DNA from: Hymenobacter busanensis | Lineage (GTDB): Bacteria > Bacteroidota > Bacteroidia > Cytophagales > Hymenobacteraceae | NCBI RefSeq assembly: GCF_008727865.1 | Contig: NZ_VTWU01000007.1 | Coordinates: 248,001 to 312,000, forward strand | Direction of reading: 5' to 3' | Length of the DNA: 64,000 bases | Shown here: positions 4,301 to 59,815 of the stretch, one piece after another | How the letters are laid out: each line of letters opens with the position of its first letter | Numbering within the stretch: the stretch's first letter is position 1 | Notes under the pieces: model-generated | The model's database searches: none | Seen by the model: only the letters and a program-made list of their open reading frames with translations | What the model was told of the DNA's origin: nothing | Translations under genes and position numbers: made by a program

Positions 4301-6519
4301 CGCCGCTCATGCAGCGGCAGGTGTCGGCCACGGACGTAGCCGAGTGGCGGCCGGGCTTGCCCACGCCCACGGCGGGGCGCGACTCGGTGGTGTACTACTG
4401 GCGCGTGCGCTTTGATCCGGCCACGGTGCAGCCCAACGAAAACGGCAACTGGGTAACCAGCTCGTTCCGCCTGATTCGCAACAGCCAGGGCGGCTGGTCG
4501 CAGAGCCATTACGGGCAGTTTGCCAGCGCCACCAAAACGGGCATTGTGCAGAATGCGCCTTCGGGCAAGTGGGAGTTTCCCGAGCAGCAGCGCAGCTTGT
4601 TGCTGCGCACCATAGGGGGCGGGGCCGGCACCACGGCTACTTTCCAAACGGCTACGCACGGCATCATTTCCAACAACACGCCGGTGAGTGCGCTCTGCGG
4701 CGTGACGGCGCCCAACCTGCTGGTGGCGGTGTTCAACCCCACCACGCTGGAAGGCCAAAGCAGCCTGCCCGGCGGCAACTTCCAAACTTGCGGCCAGGGC
4801 ACCGACACGTATTTCTTCTTCAGCGGTACGGGCAACGACAACATCAACGCCGCCGCCCGGCAGGCCCAACTAACTACGCTGCTCCAGAACGTGCCGGCCG
4901 GATACTACGTGGCCATCGTAAGTGCCAACCGGGTCGCGTTCAGCACCCTATCGGCCGCCCTGAAAGCGGAGCTGACGGCGCTGGGCTCCCAGAAAATCGG
5001 TACGCTGCAAGACGGCGACCCATACGTGCTGCTGGCCCAGAAAGGCAACCCGGCCGCCGCCCAGGAACGCACCGCCGACCCGGCGTCGAGCACCCCGCGC
5101 AACGCGCAGGATGTGGCGCTGACGCAGGCGTTGCGGGTGCGCGGCGTGGCTGGCACCATAATCAGCCCGCGCATCGGGCCGGCCCAGCAGTGGCAGACGC
5201 TCTACCACACCGTGAAGCTGCCCGACGCCACCGACCACTACCGCCTGCAGCTCATCGGCTACGACAAAACGACCAACGCGCCCACGGTGCTCGACCCCAA
5301 CGTGACCAGCCGCGCCCTGCCGCTGAACGTGTCGGCCACGCAGTACCCGTACCTCGCCCTGCAGGTGATGGTGTGGGACTCGGTAAACCGCACCGCGCCG
5401 CAGCTCAAGCAGTGGCTGATTACCTACAAGGGAGTGCCCGAAGGCGTGGTGCGCCGCGACAAAGCCCAGCCCAACGACTACGCCCCGGCGCAGCTCAGCG
5501 CACAAGTGGCCAGCACTGGCCTGCTCACGTTCCCGGTATACTTCGAGAACGTGTCGACCGAAGACTTCCCCGACAAGGTGACGGCCCGCGCCTCGGTGCA
5601 GATGGCCGACAACAGCACCATCGCGCCGGTGGAGCTGGTATCGGCCCGGGCCCTGAAGTCGGACTCGACGGTGATGTACCGCTTCAGCCTCGACGTGCGC
5701 CGCCTGAAGGGCGACGGCCGCGTGCGGGTGGAAGTCAACCCCGGCTTGCTGCCCGAGCAGTTCTATTTCAACAACGAACTGAACCTGACCTTCACCGCGC
5801 CCAACATCAACCTGCCGCCCACCGTCGACGTGGCCTTCGACGGCACGCGCATTCTGAACGGGGACATCGTGTCGCCGAACCCGGAAATTCTGGTGGACGT
5901 GAAGTACGAGGACAAGCGCAACCCGCTCGACGACCCCAACAAGATTGAGCTGTACCTGACCCGTCCCGGCCAGGCGCCCGAAAAAGTGCTCATGACCGGT
6001 GGCAACATCTCGTTCGCGGTCGATAAGGACGCCGGCCGCGCCAAGGTGCTCTACCGGCCCGGTTCCCTCGAAAATGGGGTGTACAAGCTGGAAGCGCAGG
6101 CTACCGACATGGCCGGCAACGCCGCGGCCGGGCAGCGCTACGCTGTCACGTTCACCGTCGTGAAGGAGTCGACCATCAGCAACTTCTATCCCTACCCGAA
6201 CCCCATTACCAGCAAGGCGCGCTTCGTGTTCACGCTGACGGGCTCGGAGCTGCCGCGCAACCTGAAAATCCAGATCATGACGCTGACCGGCAAAGTGGTG
6301 CGCGAAATCATGCAGAGTGAGCTGGGGCCGTTGCGCATCGGCAACAACATCACCGAGTTTGCCTGGAACGGCACCGACGAATACGGCGACCGGCTGGCCA
6401 ACGGCACCTACCTCTACCGGGTGCTGCTCGACGACCCCGACGGTACGTTCAAGCAGCGCAACACCGCTGCCGACTGGTCTTTCAAGAAAAACTGGGGCAA
6501 GCTGGTGCTGCTGCGCTAA
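1339..6519 (+). CDS. porU: T9SS sortase PorU (C25 gingipain-like peptidase)
   Basis: PorU is the cell-surface cysteine transpeptidase that removes T9SS C-terminal signals and attaches cargo to anionic LPS. The 1,726-aa protein has a signal peptide (about residues 1-30, ending MVAQ). A large N-terminal region is followed by a C25 peptidase domain with the His of YFGHGSNT at residue 682 and the Cys of FYNGCAGG at residue 712, the expected dyad. After that come CARDB/Ig-like beta domains. A C-terminal module of about 100 residues begins YPYPNPITSKARF and contains FAWNGTDEYG, a FlgD-like fold typical of PorU. The length is long for the family but usual in Cytophagales. It follows porV, so the carrier and the sortase are encoded together. 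A strong terminator follows directly. Confidence 0.93.
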   Translation: MKQVYHRLRLGLAALVGAVGLTMSALPMVAQSGPYGNEWINYSQQYAKIPVLKDGIYRLDYQYLQQAGVPAGLNPARLQLFRRGREVAIHLGGNTASVDATSYVEFYGQRNDGQLDREMYKDPNLHVNKILSQYTDTAAYFLTWNTATSGNKRMATVNQTLPNVPTQPYRLATRTIMFPYAGQTNGGNQSGGDGGGDPNAESFYPWFDRGEGFASPLRGYVNSAETSPGVAFVVDSLVNVEPNGAVPRISIMVHGLSYMQHNVKLQVRQPNGTIRQLGNVVTIDTHEGRIFNLPLERNDISADGKVQVLVTTAPVFPLPTNDLLTVGFIRVTYAQTMQWVTGSSNAFQNDSTLTTAVTSFELNNAPAQTVGYDVTNPFAVSRYPGQPVAAGRQLLVFSTTALPTTHRYHVADATLPLKPAGPRRVRFRNISPAAHNFFIITSEVLMKPAGSVANPVRAYATYRASAAGGRYDTLVVTSQQLYDQFHYGEKSALGIRHFALWMVANNTRQKYMLLLGKGLETHSRARDAAGVEFVYRTNAARSTTPDLVPPSSRATSDIFFSARWDQSNYIPQIATGRVMAQTPQQVINYLDKLKEHETPLASQQAWRKNLLHLSGGETTVEQSEFLGYVNQYKAYAERPCFAGKVVKTYSRTTIGTYTSLPVTIDISPELNAGVAMITYFGHGSNTAFDLNLGDPNSYNNGGKYPVMFYNGCAGGRSFVPGLTTAEEWTLAQGKGAIGFLASSDFGYGPQLHKYSTELYRTLFNDPAWYGKPIAVVQAEVARRVLQYFGNNDRIAIISAMSTTWQGDPALKLYSPEKPDLAITAGNISVEPIAPATGTVLATTANFNLRVPLQQTGSACYGDSLYVRVTRNFGKPGVADEVTLFPMLAPQRDTVLLLTLRNLDATKVFGQNSFRIDVDPANKIDELSETNNSATINYTFLQGGVTLLAPNNFSIVGKTDVRLVAQSNLAQTQARIYQFELDTASTFTTPLMQRQVSATDVAEWRPGLPTPTAGRDSVVYYWRVRFDPATVQPNENGNWVTSSFRLIRNSQGGWSQSHYGQFASATKTGIVQNAPSGKWEFPEQQRSLLLRTIGGGAGTTATFQTATHGIISNNTPVSALCGVTAPNLLVAVFNPTTLEGQSSLPGGNFQTCGQGTDTYFFFSGTGNDNINAAARQAQLTTLLQNVPAGYYVAIVSANRVAFSTLSAALKAELTALGSQKIGTLQDGDPYVLLAQKGNPAAAQERTADPASSTPRNAQDVALTQALRVRGVAGTIISPRIGPAQQWQTLYHTVKLPDATDHYRLQLIGYDKTTNAPTVLDPNVTSRALPLNVSATQYPYLALQVMVWDSVNRTAPQLKQWLITYKGVPEGVVRRDKAQPNDYAPAQLSAQVASTGLLTFPVYFENVSTEDFPDKVTARASVQMADNSTIAPVELVSARALKSDSTVMYRFSLDVRRLKGDGRVRVEVNPGLLPEQFYFNNELNLTFTAPNINLPPTVDVAFDGTRILNGDIVSPNPEILVDVKYEDKRNPLDDPNKIELYLTRPGQAPEKVLMTGGNISFAVDKDAGRAKVLYRPGSLENGVYKLEAQATDMAGNAAAGQRYAVTFTVVKESTISNFYPYPNPITSKARFVFTLTGSELPRNLKIQIMTLTGKVVREIMQSELGPLRIGNNITEFAWNGTDEYGDRLANGTYLYRVLLDDPDGTFKQRNTAADWSFKKNWGKLVLLR

Positions 6520-6540
6520 CTCGCTACTCCCAACCACGGC

Positions 6541-6580
6541 CAACGGGGCCACGGCACGCCGCCGTGGCCCCGTTGTTTTT
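6541..6580 (+). terminator. Rho-independent terminator of porU
   Basis: A perfect 15-bp GC-rich stem (6541-6555 with 6561-6575) and a 5-base loop are followed by a run of five Ts. It lies 22 bp after the porU stop codon. Confidence 0.85.
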
Positions 6581-6641
6581 CGGCCGCGGCTGGTCCACAT
6601 CCGGTCCGGTTCCGGCCCGGTTAGTCCAGCGGGTTTGCTGC

Positions 6642-6649
6642 TACCTTTG
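6642..6649 (+). promoter_or_regulatory. Bacteroidota -7 element (TACCTTTG)
   Basis: TACCTTTG matches the TAnnTTTG consensus of the Bacteroidota primary sigma factor. It lies 55 bp before the acyltransferase ATG and just after the porU terminator, where a new promoter is needed. No convincing -33 TTG at the usual spacing was seen. Confidence 0.5.
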
Positions 6650-6703
6650 CCGGGCTGGTACCCGCGGTTTACGTGGCTGGCTCATCTGAAAACGACTCTT
6701 CTC

Positions 6704-7987
6704 ATGCCGTTGCGCGCCGCGCCTGTTCCTGCTGCTCCCCCGACCGCGCCCGAAGCCTTAGCGGCATCGGCGGCTCCCGTTACCAGCGCGCCGGTACGGC
6801 ACCTGCGTTACCTCGACGGCCTGCGCGGGCTTGTGGCGCTGTCCATTATGCTCCGCCACAACCTGCCGGCGTTTTATCCCGCCCTCATCACCGGCGACCC
6901 GGCCGTGCGGCACATTGCGCGCTTCCCCAACCTGGAAATGGCCTTTGCCGGGACGCCGCTCGACTTGGTACACGGTAACAGCGTGGGCTTCTGCGTGTTT
7001 TTTGTGCTGAGCGGCTTTGTGCTGAGCGAAGCGTATTTCAACAAGCCCACCCTCCAGACCTTGCAAGCCAAAGCCGCCACCCGCTACCAGCGCCTGATGC
7101 TGCCGGTGTTCGTGTCGGCTTTGATGGGTTACCTATGCATGCGCCTGGGCTTGTTTTTCAACCACGAGTTGGCCGCCGTGAGCGGGGCCGCGTGGTACAA
7201 CAAGGCCTGGCCCACGGTGCCGGGAATAGCCACGCTGCTCAAGGACCTGGCGGTGGATTTGCCGCTGGCCGGCGAAACGGCCTACAACCCCGTGCTTTGG
7301 ATGTTTCACCTGGAGCTGAAAGGGTCGTTCCTGGTGTTTGTGCTGCTGGCATTCTTTGCCAACTTCCGCCACCGCGGCTTGGTCTACGGCGTGGCGGCGT
7401 TGCTGCTCGTCCTCGGGCCCTTCGATTCGCTGCTGGCGTGCTTTGTGGTGGGCGTGGCCATCAACGATTTCCGCCACCACGGGCCGCGGCCGCAGTGGTG
7501 GTCGGCGCGGGCGCGGGGCTTGGTGGTAGTCGCCTTGCTGCTGGTGTTTCTGGTAGTGGCCACGTACCCGACCACGTACTTTGTGGGCATGACTACCTCG
7601 CCCTACCGCTACCTGCAGCTGCCGCGCCTCAGTCCCGACTACAACGAGCTGCTTTACCACTGCACCGCCGCCACATTGCTGTTGCTGGCGGTGCTGCTTT
7701 CGCCGCGCCTCCAACGGCTGCTGCAGGCCCGCTGGCTGCTATTTCTAGGCAGCATGTCCTTCGGCCTCTACCTGATGCACTTTCTGGTGCTGGGCTCGTT
7801 CTCGTCGCGGCTGTTTCTGGCGCTGCTGCCGCACCTGGGCTACCACCTCAGCTTTGCCGCCACTATGCTGGCCTCGGCGCCGCTGGTACTGTTGAGCGCC
7901 TACCTGTTCACGCGGTGGGTTATCCGGCCCAACAGTCGCTGGGCGCAACGGGTGTACGAGCGGTGGTTTAAGCCGATGAGCAGTTAA
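6704..7987 (+). CDS. Membrane acyltransferase (OafA/YrhL, acyltransferase-3 family)
   Basis: This 427-aa polytopic membrane protein has the acyltransferase-3 signature near its N-terminus: RYLDGLRGLVALSIMLRH, with the conserved DGLRG and the active-site-type His. About ten hydrophobic segments follow, including the typical NSVGFCVFFVLSGFVLSEAYF segment and a late SMSFGLYLMH. Family members O-acylate cell-surface sugars, peptidoglycan or lipids using acyl donors from the cytoplasm; the substrate here cannot be told. The ATG at 6704 is chosen because the open frame upstream of it overlaps the porU terminator. The first 35 residues are rich in Ala and Pro and probably disordered. It appears to be a single-gene unit. 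Confidence 0.85.
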   Translation: MPLRAAPVPAAPPTAPEALAASAAPVTSAPVRHLRYLDGLRGLVALSIMLRHNLPAFYPALITGDPAVRHIARFPNLEMAFAGTPLDLVHGNSVGFCVFFVLSGFVLSEAYFNKPTLQTLQAKAATRYQRLMLPVFVSALMGYLCMRLGLFFNHELAAVSGAAWYNKAWPTVPGIATLLKDLAVDLPLAGETAYNPVLWMFHLELKGSFLVFVLLAFFANFRHRGLVYGVAALLLVLGPFDSLLACFVVGVAINDFRHHGPRPQWWSARARGLVVVALLLVFLVVATYPTTYFVGMTTSPYRYLQLPRLSPDYNELLYHCTAATLLLLAVLLSPRLQRLLQARWLLFLGSMSFGLYLMHFLVLGSFSSRLFLALLPHLGYHLSFAATMLASAPLVLLSAYLFTRWVIRPNSRWAQRVYERWFKPMSS

Positions 7988-37675: not shown

Positions 37676-37748
37676 GATTCTGTAGCTCAGCTGGTAGAGC
37701 AGTACACTTTTAATGTACGGGTCCTGGGTTCGAATCCCAGCGGAATCA
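37676..37748 (+). tRNA. tRNA-Lys(TTT)
   Basis: The 73-nt cloverleaf folds without gaps. The acceptor is GATTCTG with CGGAATC, the D stem GCTC with GAGC, the anticodon stem GTACA with TGTAC, and the T arm CTGGG-TTCGAAT-CCCAG. The loop CTTTTAA gives anticodon TTT. CCA is not encoded. Its 3' 30 bases are the left attachment site of the island, and the tRNA remains intact because the element restores the same sequence. Confidence 0.96.
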
Positions 37749-37749
37749 C
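37719..37749 (+). other. attL: 31-bp direct repeat in the tRNA-Lys 3' end
   Basis: GGGTCCTGGGTTCGAATCCC and the following AGCGGAATCAC are repeated exactly at 59785-59815. The tRNA T arm and acceptor end form the core, as is usual for tyrosine recombinases. Confidence 0.92.
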
Positions 37750-47562: not shown

Positions 47563-48738
47563 TCATGAGCAGGCCTTGCAAATCGCATCTATCAATAGGC
47601 TTAATTTGGAGAAATTATATTTATCATCTATGGATTTAATATGTTTAAACTTTCTAATATAATCCTCCTTATTTTCAAGCGAACCGTGATAACAATTACA
47701 CTCTTTTACGTAATTTGTCCATCTGACTTTTGGTATTTGCCGCATTTTGTATTGTAAATCCAAGAAGCATTCAATCGCAACTGCCTTTCCATTAATATTT
47801 TCTACAGATTCACCGATAGGCCCTACCGTGGTAAAGCTTGTGAATTCTACTAAGTGGGGCAGTTTCATTACTTTCATCTGAGTTGGTAGTTTCATTGCAG
47901 CAATTTTATTGTATTTATCATTGCCTTCTATATCATTGTCAAAGATTACCAGTACTTTATTTTGAATGCCTATACTCACCAGCCCTTGACAAAATCTGAA
48001 TAAATTCCCGCTACCCGTAAATGGGTATCCATCTTCCATGTCAATGAAAGTGAAGAAGCCAGCTACATCGGGCCTTGTCATCTCCATTGCTTTTTTGATA
48101 ATGAAAGTATCCGTGTTGCCCTCCGTAACAATAAGGAATTTACCTTCTTTTGCAACGCCGCCCGTCAATTCTGATTCTGTAGCCCAGCCGCCCTCAATCA
48201 AATCAGCAGTGTGCCATTCAAGCCATATATCTTGATTCTTATCATTTTCTGCGAATAAACGAAGTAAGACAAGGGGGTCAAGTAAATCGCAGAAATACAC
48301 AACATCAAATTCAGTTAAAGCATTATTCTCGCAATGTTTTATAAATGGTTCATAATTAATTAATTCTTGGTAAAGAAAATTACCCATTTCATATTCGATA
48401 TAGCCTTGATACTTATAATTATTTATATTAACCTGGCTAAGCCAGTCGAATAACACCTTGGGTTCTACTTTAATATCAGCGCCATAAATGTATCTCAGAT
48501 TTACTTCATATATAGATTCGAGCTTTGCAAGCGAATAACCAATTAAGTCAAGTCGGGCTTTAACGTCCTTTAATTTGCATGCGCTTGCAAGTTTGTGTTC
48601 CTCAACTTCGTCAGCATAACTATAGGGGACCTTCTTTCTGTCAGATGGAAGAAACAAATTGGAATAGTCTCTATATCCATGGTTCTTACCCCAATCGAGT
48701 TGCAACCCATTCACTCTAAGAGTAATCATTGATCCCAT
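47563..48738 (-). CDS. HEPN/Toprim-domain protein
   Basis: This 391-aa protein has an N-terminal HEPN/Toprim-type module starting MGSMITLRVNGLQLDWGKN, which is the standard opening of that family. A Toprim domain follows with Glu 206 in FLIVTEGNTDTFIIKKA and the DxD pair at 267/269 in KVLVIFDNDIEGND. Toprim proteins of this group are nicking or cleaving enzymes in putative abortive-infection systems. AT-rich codons suggest recent acquisition. It lies convergent with the TIR gene and is otherwise alone. Confidence 0.87.
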   Translation of the reverse strand: MGSMITLRVNGLQLDWGKNHGYRDYSNLFLPSDRKKVPYSYADEVEEHKLASACKLKDVKARLDLIGYSLAKLESIYEVNLRYIYGADIKVEPKVLFDWLSQVNINNYKYQGYIEYEMGNFLYQELINYEPFIKHCENNALTEFDVVYFCDLLDPLVLLRLFAENDKNQDIWLEWHTADLIEGGWATESELTGGVAKEGKFLIVTEGNTDTFIIKKAMEMTRPDVAGFFTFIDMEDGYPFTGSGNLFRFCQGLVSIGIQNKVLVIFDNDIEGNDKYNKIAAMKLPTQMKVMKLPHLVEFTSFTTVGPIGESVENINGKAVAIECFLDLQYKMRQIPKVRWTNYVKECNCYHGSLENKEDYIRKFKHIKSIDDKYNFSKLSLLIDAICKACS

Positions 48739-52847: not shown

Positions 52848-53336
52848 TTATCTACCTGCATCTTTTGCCGCTGCCTCAATCCATTTATCAATGTTGAGGC
52901 GCCCTAGATCTCCTTCCCAACTGTAAGTTCGGTATTTCCCCAGTGAGGCCAAAGAACGCCCTACAGAATCAAAAGAGGTTGCCAAGGGGCTTGTACCGGG
53001 CGGGTCTACTTGGCTCTGCATGTTCCTCATGCCAGCAAGATTGATGCAAAGAATACCTCTGCCATCTCTGTGAGCCTTTTCTAGTTCATACTTAACCCAC
53101 CTGCGACTAGCTGTTTCATAGCCAGCAAGTACTACGACTACACCGCACCCGTTCATATTCGTGTCTATCCAATTTTGGATAGCTCTGTCACCTTGGCGTT
53201 CAATTGTTTCCCAGTCAGCACCTGACAGAAAAGGAGTCTGCTCGAAATGGTTTGATATAGTGTTGCACTCTCGAATTTGAGAAACTCGGATTGCGTCTCG
53301 CTTGTAATGAAAACTGAAAAAAACTCTGCGTGCCAT
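52848..53336 (-). CDS. thsB: Thoeris ThsB (DUF1863 TIR-like)
   Basis: This 162-aa protein is a TIR-like DUF1863 protein. It starts RRVFFSFHYKRDAIRVSQIR, and VVVVLAGYETASRRWVKYEL contains the catalytic-type Glu at residue 84. In known Thoeris systems ThsB senses infection and makes a cyclic ADP-ribose-type signal. The length and Glu position match Bacillus ThsB closely (from memory). It follows thsA by 4 bp. Together with thsA and an upstream TIR gene it forms a three-gene Thoeris operon. Confidence 0.93.
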   Translation of the reverse strand: MARRVFFSFHYKRDAIRVSQIRECNTISNHFEQTPFLSGADWETIERQGDRAIQNWIDTNMNGCGVVVVLAGYETASRRWVKYELEKAHRDGRGILCINLAGMRNMQSQVDPPGTSPLATSFDSVGRSLASLGKYRTYSWEGDLGRLNIDKWIEAAAKDAGR

Positions 53337-53340
53337 TTGC

Positions 53341-54795
53341 TTAACTGTTGAAGGTTCTGAGAATTTCTTTTACTGTTTTTATGTGTTCATCCAGAGGGAT
53401 GTCAGTGTTGTCAAGGCTTGTATATAGTTCATGCAATTTGGCTATGTCTTTGTGTTGAAAACGTTCTAAAGGCGAAGGCATTTGCTCCATTACCTGTTCC
53501 CAAATTCTCCTGGCTGCATAACCAGTTGCGCTGATAGGAATAGGTAAAAGCCCTTGTTCAATAGCTAAAGAGTACTCGTCAAGTACCCCTTTGGCGATAT
53601 TATTATCTGTTTCATCTGAGTTGCCAAATACAAATATTGCTACGCCTGCGAATTTTATCATTTGCTGTCGATATTCAGACCATAAATCTGACAGCTTCTT
53701 TTCCCCTGTTTGATACTGAGGGAATGGACGCATAATGAGCTGAGTTTCTGAATACTTTGTTGGTTCGCTATATATTGCCTCGAGTGCGCCGTTCATAACA
53801 GCAGTGCCCACTCCAAGTCCAAATCCATTCACAATAGTATAGTTTGATTTAACTAGCTCATTGCTGAGTTTATGGATAAATCTTAGAGCTTCTTCATTAG
53901 TATACTTTCCGTATTCTGTTGCACTGCCCGATATGAAAGTAGTTCTCTGTTTATATAGTTGTTCTATTTCTAATAGCATTTCAGTTATTTCAGAGTATTC
54001 ATTTACAAGGATCGGGGTGATATGAAAACGGGATAGTTCATCTAACATTAATTCCTGTTTTTGACAACTGTAATCATACTCTGCTTCGGTTTCTGAGCCT
54101 TTTTCGCCCTTTTTGACCTTTCTAATAATCGCATAATGGTTTTTATAGTTGTCGTCAAAGTACATGCGTACTCGGCTAAGTATCCTGTCTAAGTTTGGGT
54201 CTGTAAAGCTGAAGCCAACAAAGAGGAAGGTTTTTGTAATTAGGTCGCTGCTTAGTGCAGTGATAAAAGGCTGATGAGTCAAGTGATATTTCTCATAGTC
54301 ATATTTAGTGATAATGGCTTCGGTGGAGTGATGAACATCTCCATGCATTTTGTATATGGTCACATCTTTCTTAGCAAGGCTGAGTGATAAATGCAGATTT
54401 GCGTGCTTTATATCCGCACGCTTACTAGCCGTTCTGTAAGCTTCTTCAAAAACAGTATCATAGTTTGTTGTCCATATAGTAGCAATGGGTAGCCTAGCTA
54501 TGATGTCATGGTTAATGCTGGGTTTGGCTTGGTGGGAGAATTCATCCAGTATTTTTTGGTTTATTTTATTTCTTCCCTTTTTATTGGTATGGTATTGTGC
54601 AATAGAAATTAGGTCGTTTTCAATATCTATATCTAGGTCAATGTCTTCGGCTATTTCTCTTAATAGCTCACGCCAGTTTACAAATCCTACGCCTGCTGAA
54701 AAACCAGCGCCGGCGAATATTGCAGCGTCTCCATCAAATAGATGTTTGACAAAGTCCTTAACAAATTTCTGTTTCTCTCTTTGTTCTTTTGTCAT
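53341..54795 (-). CDS. thsA: Thoeris ThsA (SIR2-SLOG NADase)
   Basis: This 484-aa protein has an N-terminal SIR2 domain with AAIFAGAGFSAGVGF (GAGFSAG 29-35), Asn 111 in WTTNYDTVF and the catalytic-type His 151 in IYKMHGDVHHS. The C-terminal SLOG-type sensor domain starts with FISGSATEYG (287-296) and has TQLIMRPFPQY, with Arg 356. ThsA breaks down NAD when it binds the signal made by ThsB, killing the infected cell. Asn 111 and His 151 fall one residue from the catalytic positions known in B. cereus ThsA (from memory). It lies 4 bp before thsB and 3 bp after the TIR gene. Confidence 0.95.
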   Translation of the reverse strand: MTKEQREKQKFVKDFVKHLFDGDAAIFAGAGFSAGVGFVNWRELLREIAEDIDLDIDIENDLISIAQYHTNKKGRNKINQKILDEFSHQAKPSINHDIIARLPIATIWTTNYDTVFEEAYRTASKRADIKHANLHLSLSLAKKDVTIYKMHGDVHHSTEAIITKYDYEKYHLTHQPFITALSSDLITKTFLFVGFSFTDPNLDRILSRVRMYFDDNYKNHYAIIRKVKKGEKGSETEAEYDYSCQKQELMLDELSRFHITPILVNEYSEITEMLLEIEQLYKQRTTFISGSATEYGKYTNEEALRFIHKLSNELVKSNYTIVNGFGLGVGTAVMNGALEAIYSEPTKYSETQLIMRPFPQYQTGEKKLSDLWSEYRQQMIKFAGVAIFVFGNSDETDNNIAKGVLDEYSLAIEQGLLPIPISATGYAARRIWEQVMEQMPSPLERFQHKDIAKLHELYTSLDNTDIPLDEHIKTVKEILRTFNS

Positions 54796-54798
54796 GAT

Positions 54799-55416
54799 TT
54801 ATCTTTGAAGTGGCTCCAAGTTGTACTTAATCCAGCCTTCGTACATTATGTACTTCGTTGAAGTCTCATGTACCCAAAGCTTGTTTTGGTTTTGTAGATC
54901 TGGATTTATGACTATGTAGTAGTAGAGGCCTAAGTATTCGCTCCCATAGTAAGAATCAGTGTTTTGATAATTTGATGCCCTAATTGGTAGCACAGCTGCC
55001 TTTTGCTTAATACCGTCGAAGTAGCCTAGTTCCCAAGGCATCCACTTGGAATTAACTGCGTTGATTGAATAAGCATAAAAAAGTGATTTGCAAGATTTCA
55101 TCCTCTCTCGCAGAATGTCAGCAGTTTTCTTTGTGACATTACTTCTATCAAGCTGAGGGTCATCTATCCAATCAACATAGACGCTATAGCCCAAATCCTC
55201 TAAAGTCAGCTTTAGGCCAAGTACCTGTTCACTGTCTGTGGTGCTATGAGAAAGAAAAATGTCATAAATTTTTGTTTCAGCTGCGCTGAGCTGGATTTTT
55301 CGGGCTTCGTTAATTGATGCTTTAGCCCTTGTATAAGGTGTGTCACTAAAAGTGCGTGTTGTTCCTACTTCAGCTTGGGCACGAAGTAGTAGTTGCTGTT
55401 CAGTGAAGAGCCCCAT
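54799..55416 (-). CDS. Second Thoeris TIR protein (ThsB-type)
   Basis: This 205-aa protein has a helical N-terminus (residues 1-48) and a TIR domain: KIYDIFLSHSTTDSEQ starts it and KWMPWELGYFDG holds the catalytic-type Glu 129. It is the first clear Thoeris gene of the operon (TIR, thsA, thsB) and differs in sequence from ThsB, so this locus has two sensors. Multi-TIR Thoeris loci are known, in which each TIR may sense different phages. The upstream repeat-protein gene ends 60 bp before it. Confidence 0.9.
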   Translation of the reverse strand: MGLFTEQQLLLRAQAEVGTTRTFSDTPYTRAKASINEARKIQLSAAETKIYDIFLSHSTTDSEQVLGLKLTLEDLGYSVYVDWIDDPQLDRSNVTKKTADILRERMKSCKSLFYAYSINAVNSKWMPWELGYFDGIKQKAAVLPIRASNYQNTDSYYGSEYLGLYYYIVINPDLQNQNKLWVHETSTKYIMYEGWIKYNLEPLQR

Positions 55417-55476
55417 AACAGTTATATGTGATGCAGATGCATCACACAGAATTTGTCAAATACTTATGTTCAAAAA

Positions 55477-55902
55477 TTAATTGAAGTAGCCAACTGACTT
55501 TAATAGTCGGACGATGCTGGTCATGTTGGTGTCCTCTAAGTATTTCAGTAGCATATGAGGTGGAGGCCAGTTACTATGATATGGATTATTGCACGGGCCA
55601 TTATACAGCCCGCCGCCAGGACCGTTATACAATCCTCCGCCCGGGCCGTTGTACAACCCTCCTCCTGGGCCATTATACAATCCCCCCCCTGGACCATTGT
55701 ACAGCCCCCCGCCAGGACCGTTGTAAAGCCCGCCTCCCGGTCCATTATACATACCTCCACCTGGGCCGTTATAAGCTCCGCCCCCAGGACCATTGTAAGC
55801 TCCACCTCCGGGGCCATTGTACATTCCGCCGCCAGGACCATTATACAATCCCCCGCCAGGCCCATTGTATCTGTCTCTTGGCCAAGTATTCTTCACTGCC
55901 AT
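55477..55902 (-). CDS. YNGPGGG octapeptide-repeat protein upstream of Thoeris
   Basis: This 141-aa protein reads MAVKNTWPRDR, then eleven copies of YNGPGGG followed by Leu, Met or Ala (residues 12-99, DNA 55606-55869), a half copy YNGPCNNP, and a distinct end: PYHSNWPPPHMLLKYLEDTN then MTSIVRLLKSVG. Codon choice varies between repeats, so the peptide rather than the DNA is conserved. I recall similar (Y)xGPGGG proteins with a similar end in many bacteria, uncharacterised. It is on the same strand as Thoeris, 60 bp before the TIR gene, with no terminator between, so it may be a fourth gene of the operon. Confidence 0.8.
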   Translation of the reverse strand: MAVKNTWPRDRYNGPGGGLYNGPGGGMYNGPGGGAYNGPGGGAYNGPGGGMYNGPGGGLYNGPGGGLYNGPGGGLYNGPGGGLYNGPGGGLYNGPGGGLYNGPCNNPYHSNWPPPHMLLKYLEDTNMTSIVRLLKSVGYFN

Positions 55903-56028
55903 AGTCTGTTGTTTGCTAAGTTTTGTGGAAGCTGTACTTTTTTGCTAATATATGTAGTCAAAGGTATGTTTTGATAAAGTATGTTCACTTTTATACAAGG
56001 ACTAGTTCAAGAGCTCCAAAGTAAAGAA

Positions 56029-56090
56029 GCGCCTGCGCAAACAAAAAAGGCCGTCCTAAACAAGACGGCCTTTTTTGTTTGCGCAGGCGC
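56029..56090. terminator. Very strong bidirectional hairpin
   Basis: Perfect 27-bp arms (56029-56055, 56064-56090) contain an inner GGCCGTC stem and flanking A/T runs. It lies just 3' of the 56094 gene and separates it from the Thoeris group. Confidence 0.82.
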
Positions 56091-56093
56091 ATT

Positions 56094-56438
56094 CTATAGA
56101 CTAGCAAAGAACTGGCGGACATCTGATAAGGGCGTGGCGTTTGTGAATGACTTAAGGGTGTTCCCTTGGATACCGTCTTCACGCATGTCGATAGCACCTG
56201 TGCTATGGTTGTACACCAGTGCGTAGCGCTGGCTATTGATGACTACCCAAAGCACATTTTTTGCTTGACCATCACGGGTCATTACTCGAATATCTTGGTC
56301 TTCGTCCTTACGCCAGATCATAGCGCCCATCAGCGCTAGCGCAATCTCATGCACGTTACCTGCGTGATGATCTGCTCTTTCCATTACGCCGATAAGATAG
56401 TTGCGTAGTTCTTCTACCTCAGTTACTGTTAGTGCCAT
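56094..56438 (-). CDS. Unknown 114-aa protein
   Basis: This protein begins MALTVTEVEELRNYLIGVME and contains HAGNVHEIALALMGAMIWR, IRVMTRDGQAKNVLWVVING-like strand NVLWVVINSQRYALVYNH, and ends LSDVRQFFASL. It looks like a compact alpha/beta protein without membrane or signal segments. I do not recognise a specific family; integron-cassette-like small proteins have a similar layout, but this is not firm. Confidence 0.65.
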   Translation of the reverse strand: MALTVTEVEELRNYLIGVMERADHHAGNVHEIALALMGAMIWRKDEDQDIRVMTRDGQAKNVLWVVINSQRYALVYNHSTGAIDMREDGIQGNTLKSFTNATPLSDVRQFFASL

Positions 56439-58388: not shown

Positions 58389-59624
58389 CTAAGCAGCTTT
58401 CATCTTGCGCTTCAACACGCCGCCGTCAACCTTGATGTAGCGCCGGAGCACGGCTGCGTCGGTTGAGCCTATCATGGCTAGAATCTCCGTCTCAGCAAAG
58501 CCCCGAGCAAAGCAGTTGCTGATGAACGTGCGGCGGCCAGAGTGCAGCGAGATGAGTTCGTGCTTGGGCTTCGTGAAGGCAATGGCTTCGGCCAGCTTGT
58601 GGCGGTAGATAGTGATGGGCTGGCTCAGGCCGATGGTCTTGCAGCACGCCTTAATAGCGGCGTTCACCTTCTGCTCGGCCACTATATCGAGGTCCCAATC
58701 GTACTTCTGCAGGATGGCGAGTGCGTTGGGCGTAGCAGGCACTCGGGTCCAGCCTCTGTTCTTCTGCGTGCGCAATACCAGCAGCCCATCCTCCAGCCGT
58801 AGCTCCTTACTGCGTATCACGTCGGACCAGCGGTAGCCAGTTTCGCAGGCGTAGACGAATAAGTCCACGTACTTTCGGAGCGTGTCGTTCCAAGGGTAGG
58901 AGTAGAGCTGCTCGACTTCGGCAGGGGAGAGGTGCACCACCTCCTTGTCCTCGGTGTACACCTTGAACTTCTTGTAGGCTGGATTAACGGCTATTTGGTG
59001 CTCTTCCTCACACCACTTCAGGAACGCCTTCAGCCGCTTGATGACCGAGCCAAAGAAGCCGTTGTAGCTGCCCTTGTCGTAGAGCTCGTACTTGGCCAGC
59101 GCCTCGTAGAACTGGCTGTCCATGCCCTCGAAGGTGAGCGGCCAGCGCTTGGCCTTGCTGAACTCTCGCATCTTCTGCACGAAGGAGCTGCGTTGCTTCT
59201 TGGTGCCTGCCGTTACGTGTAAGCTGTCGGCGTTGTAGCGGTCCAGCATCTTGTCGAAAGCGGGCTGCTTGGGCTGCGGCTGGACCACCACCAGAGGCAA
59301 TACGGGCGCTTCTGCCGCTGCTGGTGCTGCTACAGGTGCGTTGGTGAACTTGGCCTTCACGGCGTCGATGGTGGGCTCTATGCCGCTCACGACGAGCATC
59401 CGGGCGCACTCCATCATGCGGGAGCGGATGCCCTCGATTACGAGGTTAATGGTCGTGGCCTCTTTGTAGTGCGGCCTGACGCAGCCCTTGTCTTTGTCCC
59501 ATTTATCGGGTGCGACGGATAATCCGGTGGCTTGGGCGAAGTACACCGTTTGGTGCGTGTACCAAACGTGGATGGGGCATTCGCCGCCACGGCCAGCCTT
59601 GCGTAAGTATGCCTTGGTCTGCAT
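58389..59624 (-). CDS. Tyrosine recombinase (integrase) of the island
   Basis: This 411-aa protein has an N-terminal Arm-binding part (MQTKAYLRKAGRGGECPIHVW), a core-binding SAM-like domain (residues about 120-215) and a C-terminal catalytic domain. Catalytic residues are Arg 265 in ETGYRWSDVI, His 361 and Arg 364 in LHSGRRTFIS, and the nucleophile Tyr 396 in LRRYIKVD. The usual second His of the GHxxx motif is Ser 387 (MIGSTDA), an odd substitution. The gene starts 160 bp from attR and reads into the island, as expected for an integrase that recombines the 31-bp tRNA-Lys core. Confidence 0.93.
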   Translation of the reverse strand: MQTKAYLRKAGRGGECPIHVWYTHQTVYFAQATGLSVAPDKWDKDKGCVRPHYKEATTINLVIEGIRSRMMECARMLVVSGIEPTIDAVKAKFTNAPVAAPAAAEAPVLPLVVVQPQPKQPAFDKMLDRYNADSLHVTAGTKKQRSSFVQKMREFSKAKRWPLTFEGMDSQFYEALAKYELYDKGSYNGFFGSVIKRLKAFLKWCEEEHQIAVNPAYKKFKVYTEDKEVVHLSPAEVEQLYSYPWNDTLRKYVDLFVYACETGYRWSDVIRSKELRLEDGLLVLRTQKNRGWTRVPATPNALAILQKYDWDLDIVAEQKVNAAIKACCKTIGLSQPITIYRHKLAEAIAFTKPKHELISLHSGRRTFISNCFARGFAETEILAMIGSTDAAVLRRYIKVDGGVLKRKMKAA

Positions 59625-59784: not shown

Positions 59785-59815
59785 GGGTCCTGGGTTCGAA
59801 TCCCAGCGGAATCAC
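59785..59815 (+). other. attR: 31-bp direct repeat of the tRNA-Lys 3' end
   Basis: This copy is identical to 37719-37749, but the rest of the tRNA is absent here, so no second tRNA exists. It marks the right boundary of the element. Confidence 0.92.

Follow-up and report, generated by a model that had tools for sequence, protein, structure and literature searches.

Polyglycine-II and polyproline-II bundles are represented by the gp38 tip of phages S16 and PP01, by PE_PGRS proteins and by snow flea antifreeze protein, and GPGGX motifs combined with regularly spaced tyrosines recall the composition of silk and resilin. The Thoeris defence system consists of a ThsA protein with SIR2 and STALD domains and of ThsB proteins with a TIR domain, and the VCH_CASS14 family is one of integron cassette proteins. 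Two reports (PMC9122126, PMC9519451) describe hotspots at which P2-like prophages harbour defence genes, including one next to the portal gene.

We analysed a 64,000-nucleotide stretch of Hymenobacter busanensis DNA (contig NZ_VTWU01000007.1, positions 248,001 to 312,000; hereafter the window) in which a gene for a glycine-rich octapeptide-repeat protein lies directly upstream of Thoeris genes. The protein belongs to a real, selected and unnamed family spread across many phyla, and its gene rides mobile elements wherever we examined this (the window element, an E. coli prophage and plasmids), mobility having been examined for the window, E. coli, 13 plasmid records and a few others, a minority of the genome-contig loci. 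The features of the window to which the text refers are as follows, counted from its first nucleotide.

37719-37749, plus strand: att-like 31-bp direct repeat, 3' end of tRNA-Lys (repeat search)
52848-53336, minus strand: second ThsB (ThsB_TIR; PDLC00431, 3.4e-50)
53341-54795, minus strand: ThsA (SIR2 and STALD; PDLC00407, 9.3e-185; STALD, 4.9e-70)
54799-55416, minus strand: ThsB (TIR; PADLOC PDLC00422, 1.1e-57)
55428-55445, no strand assigned: 18-bp palindrome in the 60-bp junction, a hairpin without a T run by RNA folding and a possible operator
55477-55902, minus strand: octapeptide-repeat gene, 141 aa (ORF; 63-member alignment)
55480-55605, minus strand: C-terminal module of the repeat protein, residues 100-141, with a partial twelfth unit YNGP, Y-x-S-N-x-P-P and two predicted helices
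55606-55869, minus strand: eleven YNGPGGG-x octads, residues 12-99 (octad codon comparison)
55870-55902, minus strand: N-terminal leader, residues 1-11, with the invariant W-x-R; W7-P8 forms one of two bridge segments in the model
55959-55966, minus strand: TACCTTTG box, 57 bp before the repeat-gene start (consensus match only)
56029-56090, no strand assigned: long hairpin, nearly perfect and with T tracts, that separates the VCH_CASS14-type gene from the repeat gene
56094-56438, minus strand: VCH_CASS14-family gene (7.6e-37)
58389-59624, minus strand: tyrosine-recombinase-like integrase at the element's right end, recognised from its sequence and beside an att-like repeat
59785-59815, plus strand: the 31-bp repeat again, at the outer boundary of the ~22-kb element (repeat search)

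The three genes downstream of the repeat gene are genuine Thoeris, as had been read from their sequence, with ThsB, a SIR2-STALD ThsA and a second ThsB all matching PADLOC models. The gap between the repeat gene and the first ThsB gene measures 60 bp on the same strand (55417-55476), and a consensus scan listed no minus-strand terminator-like site within it, which together with RNA folding agrees with the spacing and the terminator-free junction claimed in the original prediction. On the upstream side, the TACCTTTG box resembles the Bacteroidota -7 element, and no clear -33 partner accompanies it. The long hairpin at 56029-56090 lies in a stretch (56015-56095) that folds at -58.4 kcal/mol by RNA folding; it is absent from the terminator-like sites listed by the consensus scan, and we infer that it acts as a terminator. 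Since the junction holds no detected terminator and the hairpin and TACCTTTG box lie upstream, the repeat gene may be co-transcribed with the Thoeris genes as the head of their unit.

The repeat protein has the layout MAVKNTWPRDR-(YNGPGGGx)11-YNGPCNNPYHSNWPPPHMLLKYLEDTNMTSIVRLLKSVGYFN by translation of the window ORF, and its eleven tandem octads stand as originally described. At the seven fixed positions, the 55 octad pairs comprise 129 codon pairs that are identical and 256 that differ synonymously, with 0 nonsynonymous differences, and the 24-bp units differ at 2-10 of 24 bases with 0 identical pairs of 24-mers. That all 256 codon differences at these positions are synonymous upholds the earlier suggestion of selection on the peptide. 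A chance origin of the array is ruled out by this codon comparison, and recent expansion of a DNA repeat by the 256 synonymous against 0 nonsynonymous differences. The C-terminus, which had merely looked conserved, proved to be so: W7, R9, P113 and P114 are invariant across 63 relatives, two of these four lying C-terminal to the array.

Relatives in other bacteria, mentioned in the original prediction, are real and spread over many phyla. A DNA pattern for two octads occurred in at least 118 stretches of genome contigs and in 15 of viral contigs, from records whose titles name members of Pseudomonadota, Bacillota, Bacteroidota, Actinomycetota, Chloroflexota, Planctomycetota, Acidobacteriota, Myxococcota, Spirochaetota and candidate phyla. 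For all this breadth the family is rare. With the centre genome included in each count, relatives were present in 3 of 395 genomes of the phylum (E<=1e-12) and in 3 of 395 genomes of the class (E<=1e-7); for a Silvania genome, the figure within its phylum was 2 of 299 (E<=1e-12). The closest relative shows 72% identity, with an identical protein in Hymenobacter edaphi, and adjoins a YegP-like gene recognised by eye. Some public annotations begin inside the array and give proteins that are too short (E. coli WP_024205920.1 at locus L143, 8035-8349; Weissella WP_172685697.1 at L210, 343-609), and other public records leave the gene unannotated.

Library searches placed the protein in no accepted family. 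The window protein matched no family at E<=1 in Pfam, NCBIfam or PADLOC-DB 2.0.0 and no entry in a sequence search of PDB, and five members matched 0 families of PHROGs v4. Six further members gave only weak, sub-cut-off matches in Pfam (DUF3432 at 0.01 and 0.29, DUF4774, V-ATPase_C), which we take as compositional. When PDB sequences were searched with a profile, Rhoptry neck protein 2 came up at 9.3e-8 and Dispase autolysis-inducing protein at 0.05; these too are probably compositional, because both are absent among the Foldseek matches listed. Literature searches found no paper on the octapeptide motif, none on glycine-rich or polyproline-II repeats with AlphaFold, nothing related on octapeptide repeats in defence islands and nothing judged related on Thoeris with accessory or repeat proteins. 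With no accepted family, fold match or paper found, what is new here is the protein; we claim no novelty for the mechanism.

The family takes two forms, a cytosolic one of the pattern M...WPRN-octads-YxSNxPPWxxF... and a second with a signal peptide, judged by eye, and terminal cysteines. The secreted-looking subfamily (L010, L025, L033, L036, L042, L060, L112, L118 and L128) bears C-x-GYxGPGGxC or a similar motif ahead of the octads and ends in a cysteine-bearing sequence like WNRPxPxC, with a slight deviation in L042. Wider variants built on LSTLRGGG, LSTALYGG and LSTGPYGG retain the W-x-R, GG and S-N-x-P-P positions.

The number of octads varies little. Exactly eleven were counted in 73 of 90 complete cytosolic-type relatives (90 of 102 such proteins, as 12 failed the tail-length or start filters), and octad 3 ends in alanine in 62 of these 73. 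The other 17 have 10 octads (8 proteins), 7 (2), 9 (2), 12 (2), 8 (1), 4 (1) or 3 (1), with L075 scored at 9 in spite of degenerate octads and L115 at 10 in spite of undetermined bases. Among 79 distinct proteins, a set pre-filtered for at least 7 octads and so without L069 (3 octads) and L035 (4 octads), 66 have eleven; the Bacteroidota-type variants L199 and L206 have clearly fewer. Conservation of the protein, usually with eleven octads, extends from Hymenobacter through E. coli and Bacillus to Actinomycetota and candidate phyla, and this usual number, together with octad-specific residues across phyla, argues for one folded unit.

Structure prediction points the same way. AlphaFold2 modelled the window protein from 63 sequences at a best pLDDT of 92.8 and a pTM of 0.84 (five models, 83.5-92.8), and a relative with irregular octads at a best pLDDT of 94.2 and a pTM of 0.87 (five models, 59.1-94.2, three of them scoring 59-67), figures to be read with the caution that AlphaFold2 may be overconfident on repeats. 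DSSP assigned the array neither helix nor strand in both best models and placed two helices after it; the bridge segments are two 2-residue stretches, W-P before the array and the other just after it. As these sole bridge segments flank the array, the DSSP strings suggest that they pair and close it, such that the array ends are predicted to be bridged end to end and the protein fold is probably compact. Foldseek found nothing credible in PDB for either best model (best E 5.8 and 1.4).

In the window, the repeat gene lies on an element of ~22 kb enclosed by an exact 31-bp direct repeat of the tRNA-Lys 3' end. GC content in 2-kb windows is 0.40-0.42 across the Thoeris-repeat stretch, 0.55 to its right, 0.54-0.58 at 49-53 kb and 0.37-0.46 at 44-49 kb. 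The element (37719-59815) holds several other cargo genes, including a HEPN/Toprim_N gene (47563-48738, Pfam 1e-25), a relative of which (4e-14) lies directly upstream of the repeat gene in Arthrobacter (L078). Relatives occur in 18 of 5,426 E. coli genomes, the same 18 records being found with a second query, and all six of the loci opened among these 18 lie between a P2-like prophage integrase and rcdA, one of the six in a record that is labelled plasmid and also contains rcdA. In the one E. coli P2-like prophage tested, a 14-bp direct repeat encloses the prophage with the repeat gene inside. The E. coli prophage at L143 also bears an AAA ATPase and DUF4276 pair between cI and int (5093-6826), a candidate defence pair. 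Related integrases are direct neighbours of the repeat gene in Silvania and in L139, a viral contig; in another viral contig, L141, it follows a phage portal gene.

On plasmids, blastn returned matches in 21 and 22 records and tblastn none, the latter likely due to low-complexity filtering since blastn found plasmid records; phages gave no match with either program. The smallest context is that of Weissella cibaria pJY33 (2,365 bp), whose only annotated genes are rep and the repeat gene. Seven of 13 plasmid records have Fic, HipA, ImmA/IrrE, DUF262, DUF1016, DUF4062, reverse transcriptase, RelE or AbrB/MazE genes nearby, five, the Weissella plasmid among them, show no gene annotated as defence or toxin in the stretch, and one is unannotated. 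A YjzC gene lies 51 bp upstream on one of two Enterococcus plasmids and on an Aerococcus plasmid; counting Pisciglobus, this small gene is found 46-51 bp upstream at L211 (4782-4949), L213 (4782-4949) and L097, and a two-gene unit with the repeat gene is possible.

We then compared neighbouring genes, taking those of at least 100 aa and omitting four duplicate loci. The nearest upstream gene at 114 loci encodes Fic in 11, Peptidase_M78 in 9 and an integrase in 3, the Fic and M78 counts being inflated because nine of the 11 Fic loci, the same as the nine M78 loci, have one Fic-M78 protein of related Bacilli/Clostridia MAGs. An HTH gene, the fused M78-Fic gene and the repeat gene follow each other in conserved order at L020, L022, L030, L046, L059, L073, L088 and L120 of such MAGs, the repeat gene of L088 having an internal stop. 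At PADLOC E<=1e-10, single members among the nearest upstream genes match GajB, DRT4, ThsB, SIR2 and other models, the GajB, ThsB and SIR2 matches being known as member counts from which we would assign them to single loci. Scanned directly against PADLOC, three of ten neighbours match DRT4, PDC-S46 and AbiH (4.3e-10), a fourth is pAgo-like (1.3e-18) and six match no model. Downstream genes at 103 loci include integrase (5), OmpW (3), RloB (2), N6 methylase (2) and YhaV toxin (2).

Surroundings of the repeat gene are richer in defence matches than control places chosen within those genomes. When two matched sets of 126 genes, both from the same 40 genomes, were compared, 78 PADLOC families matched near the gene at E<=1e-30 versus 42 at the control, and among the best 25 families of each set, 25 of 25 versus 2 of 25 reached E<=1.3e-82; each genome contributed a single fixed control place, and these figures count families, not proteins. 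Control places were available for 41 of 49 genomes (eight were without the requested stretch), and dropping 4 of 130 pairs over a residue limit left the 126 pairs and 40 genomes. The control places themselves match DISARM-like, AbiEi and methylase models. Many neighbourhoods of homologues do contain defence genes, but the link is not specific to Thoeris. An exclusive tie to nucleotide-signalling systems was also dismissed, as Gabija, DRT, Fic and Cas9 neighbours are equally clear.

These observations lead us to favour, tentatively and at somewhat less than even chances, the reading that the repeat protein is mobile cargo and acts by itself in conflicts between phage and host, probably by serving as a scaffold for binding. 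Its gene would travel as a passenger of integrative elements, prophages and plasmids. The eleven octads, the partial twelfth and a tail of two helices, with the N-terminal W-P-R strand apparently bridged to the segment that follows the array, would form a rigid scaffold whose many equivalent Tyr/Ser-Thr/Asn sites are open to a ligand or partner. A meeting of the array ends would explain the nearly fixed octad count. The protein would thereby help the mobile element or host against phages or rival elements; we infer that it acts autonomously, binds a ligand and takes part in phage conflict. The octad count with its alanine in octad 3, the two confident best models, the mobile contexts (the 31-bp-bounded element, the six E. 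coli loci and the plasmids), the stand-alone position beside rep and the excess of PADLOC families all favour this reading. Against it stand the many loci without a defence neighbour, the six unmatched neighbours in the direct scan, the lineage-inflated Fic and M78 counts, the 17 of 90 proteins with 3, 4, 7-10 or 12 octads and, for the structural part, possible overconfidence on repeats and the three second-protein models at 59-67.

The defence-free loci, whose neighbours include ribonucleotide reductase, cytochrome P450, LemA and transporters, and the six unmatched neighbours make a general cargo role possible. The repeat protein might accordingly be a fitness factor of mobile element or host outside phage conflict (in stress, replication control or the envelope), near defence genes solely because mobile cargo clusters, an explanation that we consider unlikely, yet the strongest of the alternatives. 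The subfamily with signal peptide and terminal cysteines fits it, suggesting that the array serves more than one compartment. So does a weak difference in relatives of one serine recombinase, which lie, at any distance, at 11 of 154 test loci versus 0 of 41 control loci. Against it, PADLOC matches near the gene exceed those at same-genome controls in both strength and number. In addition, P2-like prophages house the gene and a phage portal gene adjoins it, and elements of this kind are described as carrying defence genes (PMC9122126, PMC9519451).

Carriage by prophages and plasmids, including a plasmid with a single other annotated gene, would suit a protein that guards its mobile element against the host's immunity, for example by sequestering a nucleotide or NAD-derived signal or by capping a defence enzyme, with defence genes adjoining because both are cargo. 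Several neighbours do signal by nucleotides: Thoeris, the TIR gene of L012, and, at Bacteroidota-type variants, SMODS with AGS_C plus SLATT_4 (L198) and mCpol plus Cap15, the last a Panoptes-like pair (L200; compare PMC12657218). A multi-site, glycine-rich array could bind several ligands. But others, among them Gabija, Fic and the Mrr_cat and Cas9 domains beside the Bacteroidota-type variant L199, are not known to signal by nucleotides. A constitutive sponge would also disarm the host's own adjacent signalling system, the five members searched match no PHROG, and Foldseek of the first model against BFVD found no credible likeness to a viral model (best E 4.6), leaving counter-defence improbable.

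A bolder version of the scaffold idea, which we rate as quite improbable, would make the protein a pan-bacterial fold: a closed wheel of eleven octads and a capping unit, shut by the W-P-R strand, binding a signal or phage structure and serving mobile elements as a stand-alone weapon or shield. A cyclic nucleotide, an NAD-derived messenger or a repetitive phage structure would occupy its roughly twelve equivalent sites, and such binding would explain recurrence beside Thoeris, CBASS-like and Panoptes-like genes. Very unlikely is the opposite view of a disordered elastic or phase-separating repeat with no defined fold, like silk or resilin: composition, GPGGX motifs and a tyrosine every eight residues speak for it, but a protein of that kind would have variable copy number and no fixed fold, and here 73 of 90 relatives have eleven octads with octad-specific residues, several members replace tyrosine by serine through most or all octads, and the best models are predicted with confidence (pLDDT 92.8 for the window protein).

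The original prediction had suggested that the repeat protein could be a sensor, scaffold or inhibitor partner of Thoeris; the survey of carriers does not support a dedicated partnership. The STALD domain of ThsA was found in 2 of 49 carrier genomes at E<=0.001, one of them weakly over the cut-off, rather than consistently, and at E<=1e-8 in 3 of 395 genomes of the phylum, the window's own among the three. The octad array was absent around ThsA at both other Thoeris loci, over 9.2 kb (the whole contig) and 20 kb, a test that recovers the array at the window's own Thoeris locus. By phmmer, no relatives of the window ThsA or ThsB were found at other repeat loci, a weak test for TIR. A TIR gene does lie 80 bp before the array in Pseudomonas oleovorans (L012) and is probably the one neighbour matching the ThsB model at 3.3e-122; in viral contig L206 the gene that follows the array was read as TIR from its sequence and had no phmmer match in PDB. 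No TIR, SIR2 or SLOG domain of Pfam, NCBIfam or PADLOC was matched by the repeat protein at E<=1. With STALD in 2 of 49 carriers and two array-free Thoeris loci, Thoeris is one of many neighbours, and a Thoeris-only role was dismissed on the same two results. That the protein is a dedicated Thoeris component is thus the least probable explanation of all, the terminator-free same-strand junction, the upstream hairpin that would isolate the repeat gene with Thoeris and the Pseudomonas TIR gene being outweighed by the rarity of STALD, the phmmer result and the two loci without an array.

If the repeat protein acts in phage conflict, as we tentatively favour, it would bring a new protein architecture to that field; if outside it, it is still an unexplained, selected mobile gene. 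Its presence in an E. coli prophage and on a two-gene plasmid puts its role within reach of laboratory-strain testing. Among known systems, polyglycine-II and polyproline-II bundles would fit its best models, in which a glycine-rich segment is predicted confidently without helix or strand, but the protein differs in its octad period, usual count of eleven and capping ends, and has no credible Foldseek match to any PDB chain. With Thoeris it shares adjacency, strand and possible co-transcription in the window, whereas 47 of 49 carrier genomes have no STALD match and the protein itself has no Pfam, NCBIfam or PADLOC model. VCH_CASS14-type cassette proteins are comparable as a neighbouring small ORF on the same element, although the repeat protein has no VCH_CASS14 match. 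Like the cargo of P2-like prophages (old, tin, fun and the genes at the hotspots described in PMC9122126 and PMC9519451), it is a single small cargo gene; unlike the hotspot genes described there, the E. coli repeat gene sits between int and the att end.
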